Below, in pieces: positions 4,181-11,842 of a DNA stretch of 40,000 nucleotides. Under the pieces are notes generated by a model that worked only from the letters and a program-made list of their open reading frames with translations, did not search any database and had not been told where the DNA came from. Every line of letters starts with the position of its first letter. Position 1 is the first letter of the stretch. The stretch lies in NCBI GenBank assembly GCA_027622555.1, contig JAQBYJ010000051.1, positions 1-40,000 of the forward strand, read 5' to 3'. Position numbers and translations under genes: made by a program. This stretch comes from Verrucomicrobiota bacterium (GTDB lineage: Bacteria; Verrucomicrobiota; Verrucomicrobiia; Opitutales; UBA2995).

Positions 4181-5131
4181 ATGAAACATACCCTTCTATT
4201 TATCCTGATCACATTCTACTTAAGCTCGATTCAACTAAGCGCTGAGATCGTTATCATCGAGCTCATGGATGGGTATTCCATTAAAGGAGAAGTTCTTCAG
4301 AAAAAAAGGGACACTTATTTTGTCGATCTTGGTTACAGTATTGTCCAAATCCCCGAAAGCGCAGTCATCAGTGTGGTCACGGTAACCGGCGAAGGTTCAA
4401 TCATTGAACTGGAGGCCGACACGCTTTTCAGTGAGAACTCCGGCAAACGTCCACAATCGGTTACAGAGCTCGTTGGGCAATACGGCGAAGGCGTTGTTCT
4501 GATTGAAACCAGTACGGGGTTAGGTTCTGGCTTCTTTATTCATGAAGACGGTTATCTCATTACCAACGAACACGTCATCAACGGTGAGCATGAGATTAAA
4601 GTCACTGTGTTCGAAGACAGGGAATCCGAGGGCAAAGAATTACAAAGAACCCTTTACGAAAATGTGGAAATTGTATCGGTTTCTCCAGAGTGGGACTTGG
4701 CACTGATCAAAATCCACAACACCGAAAAAACCTTTAAGGCATTGCCCATGGGTTCCGGCGGAGATCTTGAACAAGGACAAAGAGTCTTTGCTGTGGGAAG
4801 TCCTCTCGGATTCGAACGATCCGTGTCGGAGGGAATTGTAAGTCTTAAAAACCGGGTCATGCAGGGACGGCTGCTGATTCAAACAACGGCTGAAATCAAT
4901 CCTGGCAATTCGGGTGGGCCACTGCTCAATCTTTACGGAGAAGTAGTGGGCGTTAATAATCTAAAAATCGTAGCCTTCGGTGCTGAAGGTCTGGGATTTT
5001 CAATTCCGTCAGAAATGGTGAAACTCTTTATTCAAAACCGCGATGCATTCGCGTTTGATCCTCGCAATCCAAACAACGGATTTCGTTATAACAAACCTCC
5101 CATCACCGTGCCTACAGATGACAACAACTAG
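4181..5131 (+). CDS. Exported trypsin-like serine protease (S1C, DegP-type, no PDZ)
   Basis: 316 residues starting with a signal peptide (hydrophobic 4-20, probable cleavage near 'LSA|E' at about 21), so the protease acts in the periplasm or beyond. The catalytic triad is visible: His131 in 'TNEHVI', Asp172 in 'EWDLALIK', Ser244 in 'NPGNSGGPLLN'. The fold and spacing match the HtrA/DegP protease domain, but the protein ends soon after it, with no PDZ domain. Residues 24-70 ('DGYSIKGEVL...') precede the protease domain and look like a small beta-barrel module. The stop overlaps the start of the next gene by 14 nt, so the two are probably co-translated. Substrate unknown; it may process or guard the two exported proteins encoded downstream (inference). 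Confidence 0.88.
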   Translation: MKHTLLFILITFYLSSIQLSAEIVIIELMDGYSIKGEVLQKKRDTYFVDLGYSIVQIPESAVISVVTVTGEGSIIELEADTLFSENSGKRPQSVTELVGQYGEGVVLIETSTGLGSGFFIHEDGYLITNEHVINGEHEIKVTVFEDRESEGKELQRTLYENVEIVSVSPEWDLALIKIHNTEKTFKALPMGSGGDLEQGQRVFAVGSPLGFERSVSEGIVSLKNRVMQGRLLIQTTAEINPGNSGGPLLNLYGEVVGVNNLKIVAFGAEGLGFSIPSEMVKLFIQNRDAFAFDPRNPNNGFRYNKPPITVPTDDNN

Positions 5132-6938
5132 GAAGCTTCGGGTTTCATGCACCCTTATCGCATGCGTTTTATTAAACAACTTCAGCGCTGCCAGCCGGAA
5201 TGACTTCCCTGAACTGTACGGAGAAAACACGCTCCTTTATTTAGAAATCCCCAGCCTTCCAACGCTTCAGGAAAACTGGGATAAAAATCCGTTCAATGAG
5301 CTTTATCAGCGAGAGGATGTCCGTGAATTTATCGATGGATTGATGAAACAATTCCTTCCGGACATGGATAAAGAAAACGGCAAACCCTGGCTGGAAGATG
5401 AAAATGACGAGGCGATTTGGGAAGGCATGAAGGGTAGTCAGATTGTTCTCGGGATTTCACGTTTCGATTTGATATCCATGATCCCCAATCCCAAGACAGC
5501 AGAAGCAGATAAGGGCACAAAACAAAAGAAGGAGATCCCCGAACTGTGGCTGATTTTTGATTTCGAGGAGAAAGAACTTAAAGAAAGCCTTTTCGAAGAC
5601 ATGGAAGAGGAGGAGCATGAATATGTTGAATACGAAGGCTTCTACATCATGCTTTTGGAAGAAATGGTGGTCGCATATAACGATGATATCATTGGCATTA
5701 CGAACACCGAAGAATCTGCCAGGAGTCTGATCGATCGCTATCTCGGCGAAAGCTCACAGCCTTCGTTGGCAGACAATCAAAATTTCCAAAGAAGCTTTTT
5801 GCGGCTCTACGAAACCAGTGAGATATTTTTTTATATAGACCTTAGCTTCATCAATGAGCTGGCTACCGAGGCAGCTGCGAAATATGAAGACCTTTATTCC
5901 CCCTTGGTTCAGTCCGGCCAATTGGCTCCGACCGAGAACATATTAAGAGCATTAGGCCTGCAAGCACTTCAGGGATTTTCCTTATCCATCGACCTTGAAC
6001 CAACTCAAGAAAAGATGAGAAGTTTGATGCTCCTGGAGCCCAACGATGGATTCTTTGGCCGGATCATGGGGCACTATGGCAATTCCTTACCAGACACCAG
6101 TTTTCTTGGTGAGGATCTCAGCCAGGCAATGGCCAGCAGTTTTAATATCTCAGGCATGCTTCACGATTTTGAACAATTGGTGTTTTCCATTTCACCCTTT
6201 GGCGGACAAATTTACGCAGATCAAAAGTTGCAATACGAACAGAGGCTGAGCGTGCAATTCGATGAAGCCTTGATTGATAATTTTTCCAGCAGCTTATACA
6301 TGGTATCGGGAGAAACTCCCAATACTGGAGCTACAAATCTTGGTGAGGAGTTTCAGGGCATGGAGAGTATTTTCGATCAAGGGAATACCTATATTTTAGG
6401 CATCAATGATCGTGTATCTCTCGAAGCACTCTTCGATAGTTTTCGAGCCACTTTCGATCCTCAAGGGTTTTACCTGAAAGAGGAATTCCTTGGTGCCAGC
6501 TATTACTCGATCAAGACTCCGGGCATGCCCTTCGGACCATCACTCTTTATTAGCGATCAACACATGATATACGAGCAAACGAACCCGGACTTCGGCAAAT
6601 TGGTCATGTCGATGATGCAAAATCCGGGTGATCCCATTTTTGAACGGCGAGATGTGCGCGATGCCCTCAATGAATTGCCCTCCAATCCAATTGGGCTTAC
6701 CTACTCGGATGCTCAAAAAATGCTGACTACCTTCACCAAAACGATTTCAAGTCTGCTTCCCCTAATTGCACAACAGGCAGCCTTGGATTCGGAAAATGGA
6801 GAAGGTTCGGATGCCTCGCTGGAAGATCTTCCGGAGCCTCCGATCATTGAAGATTTCGGTTATTTCACAATCACGACAACCTACAAGGAAAACAATGATA
6901 TCTATCAAGAAGGCATTTTGCGCCCTAAAACCAAATAG
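5118..6938 (+). CDS. Exported protein of unknown function (DUF3352-like appearance)
   Basis: 606 residues from the ATG at 5118. An in-frame ATG at 5043 would extend the overlap with the protease gene to 89 nt and put residues before the signal peptide; 5118 gives a clean signal sequence (basic 'TTTRKLR', hydrophobic 'TLIACVLL', cleavage near 'FSA|AS'). The mature start 'NTLLYLEIPSLPTLQENWDKNP' is the pattern of large exported proteins common in Planctomycetota and Verrucomicrobiota, in which a beta strand is followed by 'xxWxxxPxxxLxxxxxVxxF'. An acidic stretch sits around 'EDMEEEEHEY'. No enzyme motif or membrane anchor was recognised. Its end overlaps the next gene by 44 nt. The resemblance to DUF3352 is a memory-based impression and should be treated as weak. 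Confidence 0.75.
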   Translation: MTTTRKLRVSCTLIACVLLNNFSAASRNDFPELYGENTLLYLEIPSLPTLQENWDKNPFNELYQREDVREFIDGLMKQFLPDMDKENGKPWLEDENDEAIWEGMKGSQIVLGISRFDLISMIPNPKTAEADKGTKQKKEIPELWLIFDFEEKELKESLFEDMEEEEHEYVEYEGFYIMLLEEMVVAYNDDIIGITNTEESARSLIDRYLGESSQPSLADNQNFQRSFLRLYETSEIFFYIDLSFINELATEAAAKYEDLYSPLVQSGQLAPTENILRALGLQALQGFSLSIDLEPTQEKMRSLMLLEPNDGFFGRIMGHYGNSLPDTSFLGEDLSQAMASSFNISGMLHDFEQLVFSISPFGGQIYADQKLQYEQRLSVQFDEALIDNFSSSLYMVSGETPNTGATNLGEEFQGMESIFDQGNTYILGINDRVSLEALFDSFRATFDPQGFYLKEEFLGASYYSIKTPGMPFGPSLFISDQHMIYEQTNPDFGKLVMSMMQNPGDPIFERRDVRDALNELPSNPIGLTYSDAQKMLTTFTKTISSLLPLIAQQAALDSENGEGSDASLEDLPEPPIIEDFGYFTITTTYKENNDIYQEGILRPKTK

Positions 6939-9228
6939 ATTCCTTGGACTTATCCTGCTTATCTTACCGGCAGCCAGCCTTGCGGTGCTATCGGGAGCAA
7001 CTGTGGAAAAACCAAACGTTGCTATCCTCAAAGGACCCCATGTTACTACCCTCGATTGGAATACGCGAGCACCTCGTTTCGCCGATATTAACGGCGATGG
7101 CAAACAAGATATTGCCCTGATCAACAACGGTAAGGCCAAAATCGAATTCTTAATTCAGAAAAATGAAGAGACTCAGGTCCGAAAAATTGGAAACGCAACC
7201 AGCAGCAACAAATGGGAACCAAAACTGGAAGACGACTGGTTTGAAAAACGCTTCTTGGTCATCGAACAAACTGCCTATGATTTGGCACTCAACGATTTCA
7301 ACAACGACGGACGCATAGACCTGGTTGTAACTGGCAACCGGGATTCCCTATCCATTTACCTTCAAGATAAAAAAGGTGAATTTGAACAGTCCTGGACTTA
7401 CGATGAATTCACCCCGAAACAAAGGGGAGAAACCATCGTAGTCAGTGATCTCAACCAAGACGGAGAGCCAGACATAATGACGATCGGCACCGAAAAGATC
7501 CTTATTCTTTTAAAGGCAAAAAAGTCTCTGAACTTCGAAATCACGGAATATTACGTAGGAGAAAATGCAGCCTGGAACCTGCAAACAGCAGACCTTAATC
7601 TGGATGGATTACCAGACCTGATTTATTACCACTCAAACCAATCCGCCCAATTTCTGGCTGTTCGTCTACAAACCGAACCAGGTAAGTTCGGGCCGGAAAT
7701 TCCAATAGACTTTGGTTCTGCCATCTTTAAACAATTACCGACCAGTAAGTCGGAAAAACCGAATTTTATTTTCTCCGAAAGTCGGACTGGTCAGGTCAAA
7801 ACATTCTCCATTTCCCAGGAGAATGTACAGCAAAGCGATCCATTCAACGCACTCCAGACCTATACGTATCCGTTAAATTCAACCATTCGAAAATCCGCAC
7901 TTTATACCTGGGGTGACTTGAATGGAGACAAGAGGACAGATTTGATTGTCGGAGATTCCGAAGGTGCCCAGATTCAGGTTTTCCTACAGGATAAATCGGG
8001 ACTATTTTCCACCCAAAAAAACTTTCCCTCTTTTGCATTTCTCGACGGCGTCTCTGTTCTTCAACATCCAAAAACGAAGAAACCGGTTATTTTCCAGATT
8101 AGTCAAAAAGAACGGCTAGCCGGAATTTCTCAAATGACCAAAGAGGGTGAACTACCCTTTCCCACGCTCTTGCCGCTTGAGGGAGAACCAATCGCCATTC
8201 TCAACAACCACGAGGCCAGTAAAGATTTCCAAGGCTTGATTCTCATCGAAAAGCTCAAACGGGAATATCATTTAACCGAATACAACCTGGATAATGAAGG
8301 TGAGTGGAAAGCAACCAGAATATTAATAAAGGAACTAAAAAACGAACCACGCGGACTCGCGCTGGCTTACTTCGAAAAAGATACACCTTTTCTGGTCGTA
8401 CTTGCTCAACGAGAAGGAGCAATTTTTCTTAAACAGGGAGAAGAAGGTTGGGAGGAAACCGGAACGGAATCGGCGCTACGCAAGACACTCCTCTACGATT
8501 TAGCATCAGACCGTATAAATTTTTCAGACATGAACGGTGATGGAATTGATGAGCTCTTTATCGCCGATACCGGATTCCTTCGTAAAATATCTTACGACAC
8601 GAAAAAGGCTGATTTCATAATCGAAGAACAATTCAACACACCGAAGCGCAAACAGGACGCGCGCCTCCCAATTCCATATAAGAAAGAAGACACTCAGGGC
8701 ATCGTTTACTTCGACCCCAAAGATGACCACATCTACTGGACGGGCAAAAGCGGAGTCTCACTCCTTCAAGGCAACAATCAAAAAGAGTTGCCACCATTGA
8801 CTCCAATCATCGGCAGGCATATCGACCTTGGGAAGGGAAAGTCTGCCCTACTAATTGGAGGTGAGAAACGATTTTATCTTATTCCCGACGAAGGAGAATT
8901 ATGGAATATCGACGTGGATAGTTCCTATTACGAACCAGAAACCGACGAAGTCCGGTACTCGTACCTGTTTGTTAGCAATCGGCTCGATAATGGAAAATCA
9001 GGTATCATTGGCATAGATCCTCAGGTTCACGTACTGGAGCTTTTTTCGCGGTCTCAAGAAAACGAATATTCTCAGGTGTTAGAATTTACCCTGTTCGATC
9101 AAACCGCCCAACGCGGAAACCAACAGGTAAATTACCAGCCAAGAGACGCCGGAATCAATGATCTCAACGGCGATGGCAGGGATGATATTGTTCTTTTGGT
9201 TCACGATAGGATGCTGATTTATTATTAG
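6895..9228 (+). CDS. Exported FG-GAP/VCBS-repeat protein
   Basis: 777 residues from ATG 6895, chosen because it directly precedes a signal peptide ('FLGLILLILPAASLA'); an upstream ATG at 6766 would give an implausible basic extension. At least seven calcium-binding-type repeats of the form D-x-N-x-D-G-x-x-D are visible: 'FADINGDGKQDIALI', 'LNDFNNDGRIDLVV', 'VSDLNQDGEPDIMTI', 'TADLNLDGLPDLIYY', 'WGDLNGDKRTDLIVG', 'FSDMNGDGIDELFIA' and, at the C-terminus, 'INDLNGDGRDDIVLL'. Such repeats form integrin-alpha-like beta-propellers used for binding at the cell surface. The first and last repeats sit close to the mature ends, as if one propeller closes on itself. No catalytic domain or anchor is seen. 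It is the third gene of an overlapping exported set and is followed at once by palindromic repeats. Confidence 0.88.
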   Translation: MISIKKAFCALKPNRFLGLILLILPAASLAVLSGATVEKPNVAILKGPHVTTLDWNTRAPRFADINGDGKQDIALINNGKAKIEFLIQKNEETQVRKIGNATSSNKWEPKLEDDWFEKRFLVIEQTAYDLALNDFNNDGRIDLVVTGNRDSLSIYLQDKKGEFEQSWTYDEFTPKQRGETIVVSDLNQDGEPDIMTIGTEKILILLKAKKSLNFEITEYYVGENAAWNLQTADLNLDGLPDLIYYHSNQSAQFLAVRLQTEPGKFGPEIPIDFGSAIFKQLPTSKSEKPNFIFSESRTGQVKTFSISQENVQQSDPFNALQTYTYPLNSTIRKSALYTWGDLNGDKRTDLIVGDSEGAQIQVFLQDKSGLFSTQKNFPSFAFLDGVSVLQHPKTKKPVIFQISQKERLAGISQMTKEGELPFPTLLPLEGEPIAILNNHEASKDFQGLILIEKLKREYHLTEYNLDNEGEWKATRILIKELKNEPRGLALAYFEKDTPFLVVLAQREGAIFLKQGEEGWEETGTESALRKTLLYDLASDRINFSDMNGDGIDELFIADTGFLRKISYDTKKADFIIEEQFNTPKRKQDARLPIPYKKEDTQGIVYFDPKDDHIYWTGKSGVSLLQGNNQKELPPLTPIIGRHIDLGKGKSALLIGGEKRFYLIPDEGELWNIDVDSSYYEPETDEVRYSYLFVSNRLDNGKSGIIGIDPQVHVLELFSRSQENEYSQVLEFTLFDQTAQRGNQQVNYQPRDAGINDLNGDGRDDIVLLVHDRMLIYY

Positions 9229-9286: not shown

Positions 9287-9373
9287 TTCCAAGACGGCTC
9301 GCTACCGCTACGCTCATCCGAGCTTCGCCGGACATGTCGGTCTCCGTGACTCGCAACGTTCCTGGACATGGCG

Positions 9374-9507
9374 TCGATGCAAGCATCGAGCCCTACGTAA
9401 TCGATTGTACGAACATCCACGATTTACCCGCCGTAGGGTCAGTTGCTTGCAACTCGACCACCCGTAGTTGCTCCCTCCATAGCATCGATGCAAGCATCGA
9501 GCCCTAC
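9374..9507. repeat. Two direct copies of a TCGATGC hairpin element
   Basis: An identical 23-nt unit occurs at 9374-9396 and 9485-9507. Each starts with the perfect hairpin TCGATGC-AA-GCATCGA and ends in GCCCTAC. Between them lies a related palindrome with GTAGGG and 'GTTGCTTGCAAC'. This is an array of REP-like hairpins placed between the convergent FG-GAP and SDR genes; short open frames running through it are not genes. Confidence 0.7.
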
Positions 9508-10496: not shown

Positions 10497-11060
10497 ATGG
10501 GAAAATCGGCACTCTTTATATTCACCGATGGAATCGAAGAACTGGAAGCAGTAGCTCCTCTGGACATCCTTCGCAGGAGTGGAGTCACTTGCACCAGCGC
10601 TTCTCAAACAGCCAATCTGGAGGTAACTGGCAGGAATCAGATCATCCTCAAAGCCGATTGTTTGTTGGAGGACATATTAAACCAGTCATTCGACCTCCTG
10701 GTAATTCCTGGCGGCCCCGGAGTGTTTACGCTGAGAAAGGATCCGAGGATTGTTCAAATAATCCAGAACCACTCGGAGTCGGGAAAACAAATAGCGGCAA
10801 TTTGCGCTGCTCCCACTTTATTAAAGGATGCCGGGATTTTGGAAAACAAAGCTTACACGGCGCACTTTACGGTCGCTGATGAATTGCCGGAAATCATCGA
10901 AGCAGCAGCGGTGGTCGTCGATGGTAACGTGATCACGTCCCGGGGAGCTGGAACTGCGATCGAGTTCGGGTTGAAGCTCGTCGAAATTCTTTGCGGAGTC
11001 GAGGTAGCCAACGACGTCGCTGAAAGTATCCATTTTCGCCCTGAATCGTCCGTCCGTTGA
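10497..11060 (+). CDS. DJ-1/PfpI family protein (YajL-like)
   Basis: 187 residues from ATG 10497; a GTG at 10473 would add eight residues before the conserved first beta strand and is not preferred. The DJ-1 active site is visible: Cys103 at the nucleophile elbow ('AAICAAP'), Glu17 in 'GIEELEAV', and a His in 'YTAHFTV'. 'LLVIPGGPGVFTL' and 'VITSRGAGTAIEFGLKLVEIL' match the DJ-1/YajL subgroup (the 'SRGPGTA' strand) rather than PfpI proteases. Known members act against oxidative or glyoxal damage, as chaperones or deglycases; the activity is debated. Cytosolic. No operon partner upstream; a repeat separates it from the prepilin genes. Confidence 0.87.
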   Translation: MGKSALFIFTDGIEELEAVAPLDILRRSGVTCTSASQTANLEVTGRNQIILKADCLLEDILNQSFDLLVIPGGPGVFTLRKDPRIVQIIQNHSESGKQIAAICAAPTLLKDAGILENKAYTAHFTVADELPEIIEAAAVVVDGNVITSRGAGTAIEFGLKLVEILCGVEVANDVAESIHFRPESSVR

Positions 11061-11078
11061 AAATATCGTTTCAAAATG

Positions 11079-11133
11079 TAGGAGCGGCTTTACGCCGCGA
11101 TTGCTCTCCGACGGAGAAATCAAAGCCTACAAT
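11079..11133. repeat. GTAGGAGCGGCTTTACGCCGCGA palindromic element
   Basis: The sequence beginning TGTAGGAGCGGCTTT (11079-) and continuing ACGCCGCGA is the same family as the elements at 22581 and 39723. A weak opposite arm is present (AAAGCCTACA about 11122-11131), with a perfect inner hairpin TCTCCG-A-CGGAGA at 11105-11117. Because this repeat lies here, the long open frame starting at TTG 11057 is unlikely to be coding in its first 30 codons. Confidence 0.6.
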
Positions 11134-11149
11134 CGCCACTGAACCATGT

Positions 11150-11842
11150 GTGCCAAATCTTTCCTACAGAGTCAGGCTTGATCGCGACCAGGTTCTCAAT
11201 CATCGCCACGGCTTCACCCTGGTCGAAATGATGGTAGCCATCACTATCATCGCCATTCTGTCAGGTGTTCTTTTTACAGCGTTCAATCAGAATCAAAATG
11301 CGCCGCGTCTGGACACCGCCCAAATGATCCTTAGTCAGGCGTTTTCAAATGCACGTTCTCAGGCAATCTTGAAGCAAAATAATGCACGCCTGATTATCTA
11401 CAGTTCGGAACCGACAAATGAAGAAGAGGCCGATAAGTTTCTGCGCTACTTCGGCGTGGTGGTCGAAACCGCACCCGGTTCCGAGCAATGGGAGATGTCG
11501 CTAAAAGGAGAATATCTTCCCGAAGGTATTTATTTTATCCCGGACAGCACTGGCGAAAAAATTGTTTGGAATGACGACCAACCGACTTCCAAAAACAATC
11601 ACCAATCCATGAATCTCCGGTTTCCATCCATTCAAGCTGAAGCAGTCGGGGACGGACCGGAATGGAATTACTTTGAGTTTAAAAGCACGGGCAGGATGAG
11701 TGGACTAAACAACAAAGTCGTATTGGCAGAAGGAAGTTCGCAGGAACTGAAACCAGAATTCCCCTCACCGACCGCTATTTTAGGTATGGTCTTTAACAGT
11801 TATGGTTTGCATTTCCCATTGGACGAGGAGGAATCACTTTGA
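11150..11842 (+). CDS. Prepilin-like protein, Verru_Chthon cassette protein D type
   Basis: A type IV prepilin signature, 'HRHG|FTLVEMMVAITIIAILSGVLF', is clear: a basic leader ending in Gly, then Phe, Glu at +5 and a long hydrophobic helix. Such proteins are cut and N-methylated by prepilin peptidase and assembled at the inner membrane. GTG 11150 is chosen as start (230 residues, 20-residue leader) because longer starts run through a repeat element; no good ribosome-binding site supports it. The globular part has 'YFGVVVET...W' and 'IYFIPDSTGEKIVWND', as in the D family of the cassette. The assignment to D rests on gene order and general form. Its stop overlaps the next start by 4 nt. No disulfide-forming cysteines are evident in the globular part. 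Confidence 0.75.
   Translation: MPNLSYRVRLDRDQVLNHRHGFTLVEMMVAITIIAILSGVLFTAFNQNQNAPRLDTAQMILSQAFSNARSQAILKQNNARLIIYSSEPTNEEEADKFLRYFGVVVETAPGSEQWEMSLKGEYLPEGIYFIPDSTGEKIVWNDDQPTSKNNHQSMNLRFPSIQAEAVGDGPEWNYFEFKSTGRMSGLNNKVVLAEGSSQELKPEFPSPTAILGMVFNSYGLHFPLDEEESL

Follow-up and report, generated by a model that had tools for sequence, protein, structure and literature searches.

The 40,000-nucleotide (nt) stretch analysed here (the window; positions 1 to 40,000 of the forward strand of contig JAQBYJ010000051.1, assembly GCA_027622555.1, from a Verrucomicrobiota bacterium of the order Opitutales, UBA2995) contains three overlapping genes coding for an HtrA-type protease, a 606-residue protein and an FG-GAP propeller protein. 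These three genes form a conserved but patchily distributed module of Verrucomicrobiota. Coordinates of the features are positions in the window, on the + strand, as follows.

4181..5131, + strand: protease gene, 316 residues, with a signal-like N-terminal segment, a small beta domain, a catalytic domain and a conserved C-terminal tail
4247..4381, + strand: small N-terminal beta domain (protease residues 23-67), delimited from the secondary structure of an AlphaFold2 model, with a VDLGF..IP motif and no plausible Pfam match
4493..5008, + strand: HtrA catalytic domain, about residues 105-276, with the triad H131, D172 and S244
5036..5101, + strand: conserved tail NRDAFAFDPRNPNNGFRYNKPP (protease residues 286-307) in the position of a PDZ domain, modelled with low confidence from about residue 291 onwards
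5118..5131, + strand: 14-nt overlap of the protease gene and the gene for the 606-residue protein
5118..6938, + strand: gene for the 606-residue protein, a distant DUF3352 relative with a TP0453-like predicted fold
5211..6077, + strand: internal repeat 1 of that protein, residues 32-320, from HHalign comparison of its halves
6078..6935, + strand: internal repeat 2, residues 321-606, from the same comparison
6895..6938, + strand: 44-nt overlap of the 606-residue protein gene and the FG-GAP gene
6895..9228, + strand: FG-GAP gene, 777 residues, with a conserved C-terminal HDR.L.Y motif

The gene boundaries and both overlaps are exactly those given in the original prediction, which was made from the sequence alone. 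Its view that all three products are exported agrees with the hydrophobic, export-type N-terminal segment that we recognised by eye on each of them, and its description of a PDZ-less HtrA-type protease and of seven FG-GAP repeats is borne out by the domain analyses given below. The overlaps suggest that the three genes are co-expressed. Scans for promoters (3 sites vs 7.8 in shuffled sequence, fewer than expected by chance) and terminators (9 sites vs 6.7±3.0) were not informative.

With the 606-residue protein as a probe, matches were obtained in 13/53 related genomes, the window's own genome being among the 53. In 9 of the 12 larger stretches around matches outside the window the three genes are adjacent and in the same order; a tenth (L018) also carries all three, in another (L016) the contig stops short of the protease, and L019 carries only the 606-residue protein gene. 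Flanking genes of the PPK2, SDR and DJ-1 families are common only to the same-genus members of these 12 stretches, and outside the genus identity to the window proteins falls to about 50% for the protease, 22–32% for the propeller and 15–20% for the 606-residue protein.

We then used the protease's C-terminal tail to probe named records in a collection of 84,980 species, each represented by a single genome. The best 80 of at least 556 confirmed relatives, ranked by similarity of their tails to that of the window, were taken, so this set favours close relatives, and some of its loci coincide with contigs of unnamed loci. As many as 79 of the 80 carry Verrucomicrobiota titles (Opitutales, Puniceicoccaceae, Cerasicoccus, Coraliomargarita, Prosthecobacter, Brevifollis, Chthoniobacteraceae and others). 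All three genes are present in order and on one strand in 70/80 loci, in two of which one gene is split between frames; nine of the other ten have the protease and the 606-residue protein gene and one the protease only, and eight of these ten stop at a contig edge. Culturable organisms such as Coraliomargarita sp. SDUM461004 (L135) and Cerasicoccus arenae (L106) are among the carriers of the trio. One trio very like those of Opitutales (L130) stands in a record titled Deltaproteobacteria, which may be a mislabelled metagenome-assembled genome or a case of transfer.

A draw of 387 genomes from the phylum gave a strong tail match (E≤2.3e-10) in 39 and a weak one in 8, and the module can thus be called widespread, though patchy. 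Twenty stretches around strong matches were compared, one (L220) from the window's order and 19 from other classes, where there were 20 such matches and G453 was left out; 16 of the stretches have the trio in order. The order is permuted to propeller-protease-606 in L216 and also in L223 (genome G538), where propeller and protease adjoin and the 606-residue protein gene lies beyond them; in L205 (G450) the protease stands alone, with the genes for the 606-residue protein and the propeller adjacent on another contig. Because distant relatives show the same arrangement amid different flanking genes, we conclude that the trio is not a chance neighbourhood.

A single draw of 286 genomes from the window's class was searched with the protease tail, the propeller and an alignment of the 606-residue family; the probe alignments include some of the searched genomes. 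The tail cut-off (E≤4.4e-22) was chosen after inspection of the values and falls in a gap between 4.4e-22 and 1.7e-5, and a further 23 genomes, whose matches were weaker (E of 1.7e-5 or worse) and mostly partial, were set aside; propellers were accepted at E≤1e-20. The genomes with a strong tail and those with a propeller were the identical 53/286, so that in this draw protease and propeller are present or absent together. The probability of such an overlap is 10^-58 if kinship is ignored. A sounder measure is given by the 12 families that mix carriers and non-carriers (f10, f13, f20, f21, f22, f30, f34, f38, f43, f53, f54 and f65), in all of which the two genes agree (hand tally).

This agreement does not depend on adjacency. 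In 24 of the 53 carriers no more than 8 kb separates the starts of protease and propeller; in the other 29 the two are apart in the assembly. In five of the latter (G058, G144, G227, G256 and G284) the protease is near a contig end and adjacency is possible. G121, G195, G209 and G242, at the least, have the three genes on three different contigs. Orthologues of protease and propeller are not scattered singly through these genomes, a pattern that the original prediction had named as contrary to a set: even when apart, both are always present. The 606-residue family was found in 52 of the 53 carriers, 51 at the set threshold and one (G153) as a divergent copy after the protease; no match was found in G227, whose contig ends at the protease. 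As a control, the PPK2 gene directly upstream of the trio in the window occurs in 223/286 genomes and in 40/53 carriers (hand count) and is not associated with the trio; it adjoins the protease in three same-genus relatives and not in distant stretches, and was rejected as a fourth member. The conserved order, the identical presence of protease and propeller, and their co-occurrence also when apart make it well supported that the three genes form one functional set.

The 606-residue family is also found in 49 genomes of the class that have no protease-propeller pair. In a tree of 53 family members, ten copies from pair-less genomes are interspersed among trio copies, and the branches with good support require at least four changes between solo and trio state, several long branches being unsure. 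Two pairs of loci illustrate the difference. In L079 a mobA-type gene is followed by the protease, the 606-residue protein gene and then a convergent propeller; in L077, which belongs to a different genus of the same taxonomic family and is colinear for several kilobases upstream, the 606-residue protein gene (41% identity) adjoins the mobA-type gene with no protease in between, and no propeller was found in its genome at E≤1e-20. Similarly, L019 keeps the amidase neighbour and the 606-residue protein gene of L018, without protease and propeller. These loss patterns favour the 606-residue protein as the part able to stand alone, and protease and propeller can therefore be viewed as a pair accompanying it, and not the reverse.

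The same pattern bears on the view taken in the original prediction, namely a maturation or export set in which the protease cleaves the propeller, the 606-residue protein or both, and so releases or matures surface proteins. A protease gene in first position, overlapping genes, export-type N-termini on all three products (by eye) and the presence of a triad would all suit such a set, but several lineages keep the 606-residue protein in the absence of the protease, so that it does not need this enzyme for maturation there; we consider this explanation unlikely.

The 316-residue protein matches Trypsin_2 (E=5.3e-31), and the best fold matches of its catalytic domain include Deg5, HtrA, MucD and DegS without their PDZ domains. 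No PDZ family was matched in Pfam or NCBIfam, the chain ending about 35–40 residues past the catalytic domain, and the TIGR02037 score (168.5 bits against a cut-off of 416.2) is below the Do-family threshold. H131, D172 and S244 are invariant, in catalytic sequence context, in a 37-row protease alignment; the triad patterns occur in 142 of 145 distinct protease open reading frames (ORFs), the other three failing the Asp pattern only. The small N-terminal beta domain, whose VDLGF..IP motif is conserved, resembles, only weakly (E=0.024), an N-terminal domain model from Leptospira.

After the catalytic domain, the protein continues into a tail with the consensus NRDAFAFDPRNPN.GFRY..PP. A loose pattern finds it in 142/145 protease ORFs, the other three having it by eye, and a stricter pattern in 123/145; L089, a longer generic HtrA-type ORF, lacks it. 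In the AlphaFold2 model of the protease (mean predicted local distance difference test score, pLDDT, 81.7; predicted template-modelling score, pTM, 0.67) confidence is 88 at residues 281–290 and then drops to 64, 58 and 48 in the next blocks. A segment that is conserved yet not confidently folded on its own would fit a docking peptide.

An enzyme with such a catalytic domain could also be a PDZ-free housekeeping HtrA serving general envelope quality control, the common role of HtrA proteases, with the propeller presenting substrates and no special link to the 606-residue protein. We regard this as quite unlikely, since the genome already has two Do-family proteases above the family cut-off elsewhere, which makes the trio protease an additional enzyme, and since the 606-residue protein gene accompanies the pair in nearly all carriers of the class, mostly adjoining the protease.

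The FG-GAP protein scores well above the curated cut-offs of FG-GAP_3 (E=1.5e-34, 118.8 bits against 26.9) and FG-GAP (61.6 bits against 22.1). Six strict calcium-type motifs and a seventh recognised by eye (DMNGDGIDE, near residue 545) make up the seven repeats, and profile positions 492 and 695 resemble degenerate copies. Judging from its length and the spacing of the repeats, the 777-residue protein may form more than one propeller. Its C-terminal HDR.L.Y motif is almost invariant.

In profile comparisons the propeller weakly matches cartilage acidic protein 1, integrin alpha-V, a secreted esterase and a lectin. This would be in line with extracellular adhesion or matrix processing, in which a propeller of integrin type would attach to matrix or polysaccharide and carry protease and 606-residue protein to the surface. 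Those matches, however, are short repeat-level similarities, and Pfam and NCBIfam scans found no carbohydrate-active or sorting domain in the three proteins, which leaves this role improbable.

The 606-residue protein of the window has no Pfam or NCBIfam match at E≤1. DUF3352 (PF11832) is matched by 28 of the 71 aligned family members at E≤0.01 (best E=4.4e-15). The two halves of the protein are homologous (HHalign probability 97%, E=1.1e-10), and its predicted model, built with 71 sequences, is of good quality (mean pLDDT 87.8, pTM 0.86). The nearest solved fold is the alpha/beta/alpha fold of TP0453 (Foldseek E=6.3e-06; template-modelling (TM) score 0.46 relative to the target and 0.22 relative to the query), with a structural alignment of Z=13.1 over 217 of the 247 target residues (217 of the query's 606) at a root-mean-square deviation of 5.0. 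TM1622, TiME, RseB, DcrB and DNA clamps scored no higher than Z=5.1, and we do not propose them as fold relatives. By eye, no lipobox was seen at the end of the signal segment in the window protein, and a crude lipobox pattern occurs in 15/145 relatives. A shared predicted fold with TP0453 would be no proof of shared function, and the protein may possibly bind lipid. In one locus (L062:7929-11533) two tandem genes of this family lie between protease and propeller.

Given a module of this composition and loss pattern, we infer that the PDZ-less HtrA protease has the propeller as its adaptor or sensor and that this pair acts on a lipid-handling 606-residue protein, an explanation we put forward tentatively, as somewhat short of an even chance. 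The FG-GAP propeller would take the place of the PDZ domain by docking on the conserved C-terminal tail, and the protease-propeller pair would switch, trim or clear the 606-residue protein, itself periplasmic, probably lipid-binding and touching the outer membrane. On this proposal, protease and propeller should need each other and the 606-residue protein, which can persist alone. In its most specific form, which we hold to be rather doubtful as a whole, an HtrA protease would have given up its PDZ domain in favour of a linear tail that docks on an FG-GAP propeller made as a separate protein, and the two would constitute an obligate pair regulating a DUF3352/TP0453-like outer-membrane lipid-transfer protein. 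Such a unit would be ancient in Verrucomicrobiota, with repeated joint losses of protease and propeller.

Several observations weigh against the adaptor proposal. At two named loci (L116 and L159) no propeller stands beside the protease and 606-residue protein gene although the contigs continue, an observation that concerns the locus only. Outside the class the pairing of protease and propeller is less clean: G334 (L207) has a tail protease and a 606-residue protein gene, its contig ending just after the latter, and a search of the genome yielded no propeller orthologue (best match 34.8 bits), and the propeller matches in G465 and G538 are weak, at about 70 bits. In 19 loci where the propeller lies apart from the protease there is no generally shared neighbour, the widest other family reaching 6/19 once the propeller itself and its antisense shadows are discounted. 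The tail could instead pack in a way that the prediction missed. As to lipid handling, the window protein itself matches no DUF3352 model, the fold match to TP0453 is partial (query TM score 0.22) and is accompanied by no sequence similarity (profile search of the PDB, best E=0.018, nothing significant), and TP0453 of Treponema pallidum is itself an outer-membrane lipid carrier by proposal only.

Some further features of the loci may be recorded. An exported-looking gene of one and the same unknown family lies near the separated propeller, mostly directly upstream, in six of those 19 loci (L239:10060-12252; L237, L240, L245, L247 and L248). An Amidase_3-type gene is upstream of the module or of a solo 606-residue protein gene in 5/51 loci (L018, L019, L020, L021 and L055; confirmed by Pfam for L018 and L021), and a MobA-type nucleoside triphosphate transferase is upstream in one subgroup; neither neighbour is general. 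A role in defence was considered and rejected: PADLOC returned similarity to protease domains only (RT-Protease_XI, PDC-M35A and PDC-S45) and nothing for the other two proteins. Downstream of the propeller gene in the window, a 30-nt repeat whose core is palindromic occurs twice (9367-9396 and 9478-9507) and is probably an intergenic element like the repetitive extragenic palindromic (REP) sequences; a 23-nt core of it has 10 copies in the genome and none in a reversed control. A pseudopilin gene is probably located at 11057-11842, because its relative in L017 (14640-15206) begins with the prepilin-type motif GFTVVELLVAI.

The main consequence is that three unconnected annotations (trypsin-like peptidase, hypothetical or DUF3352 protein, FG-GAP protein) become one testable envelope system, spread patchily in a phylum with little cell-envelope genetics. 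DUF3352 gains a functional context, and lineages that lack protease and propeller yet retain the 606-residue protein offer a natural experiment.

The combination had been put forward at the outset as one not known as a described system, and we found no description of it among the papers listed in the literature searches. Each component has its own nearest relatives. The protease resembles HtrA, DegP and DegS (S1C) in its catalytic domain and triad and differs from them in having no PDZ domain, and in its N-terminal beta domain and conserved tail. Part of the 606-residue family matches DUF3352, unlike the window member, and no paper naming DUF3352 was found in the literature searched. The same protein is similar to TP0453 in predicted fold, but the solved TP0453 chain has about 250 residues against 606, and among the features compared duplication is seen in the 606-residue protein only. 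With FG-GAP/VCBS and integrin-type propellers the trio protein shares repeats above the curated cut-offs, and it differs from them in its 777-residue length, long stretches of degenerate repeats and C-terminal HDR motif. A parallel to the protease-propeller pairing is the trypsin-FG-GAP fusion in one chain reported for Streptomyces avermitilis (NP_825221.1; PMC2605481). In the accessible part of that report it is a single fused protein, with no third component, and as such gives an independent hint that domains of these two kinds work together.

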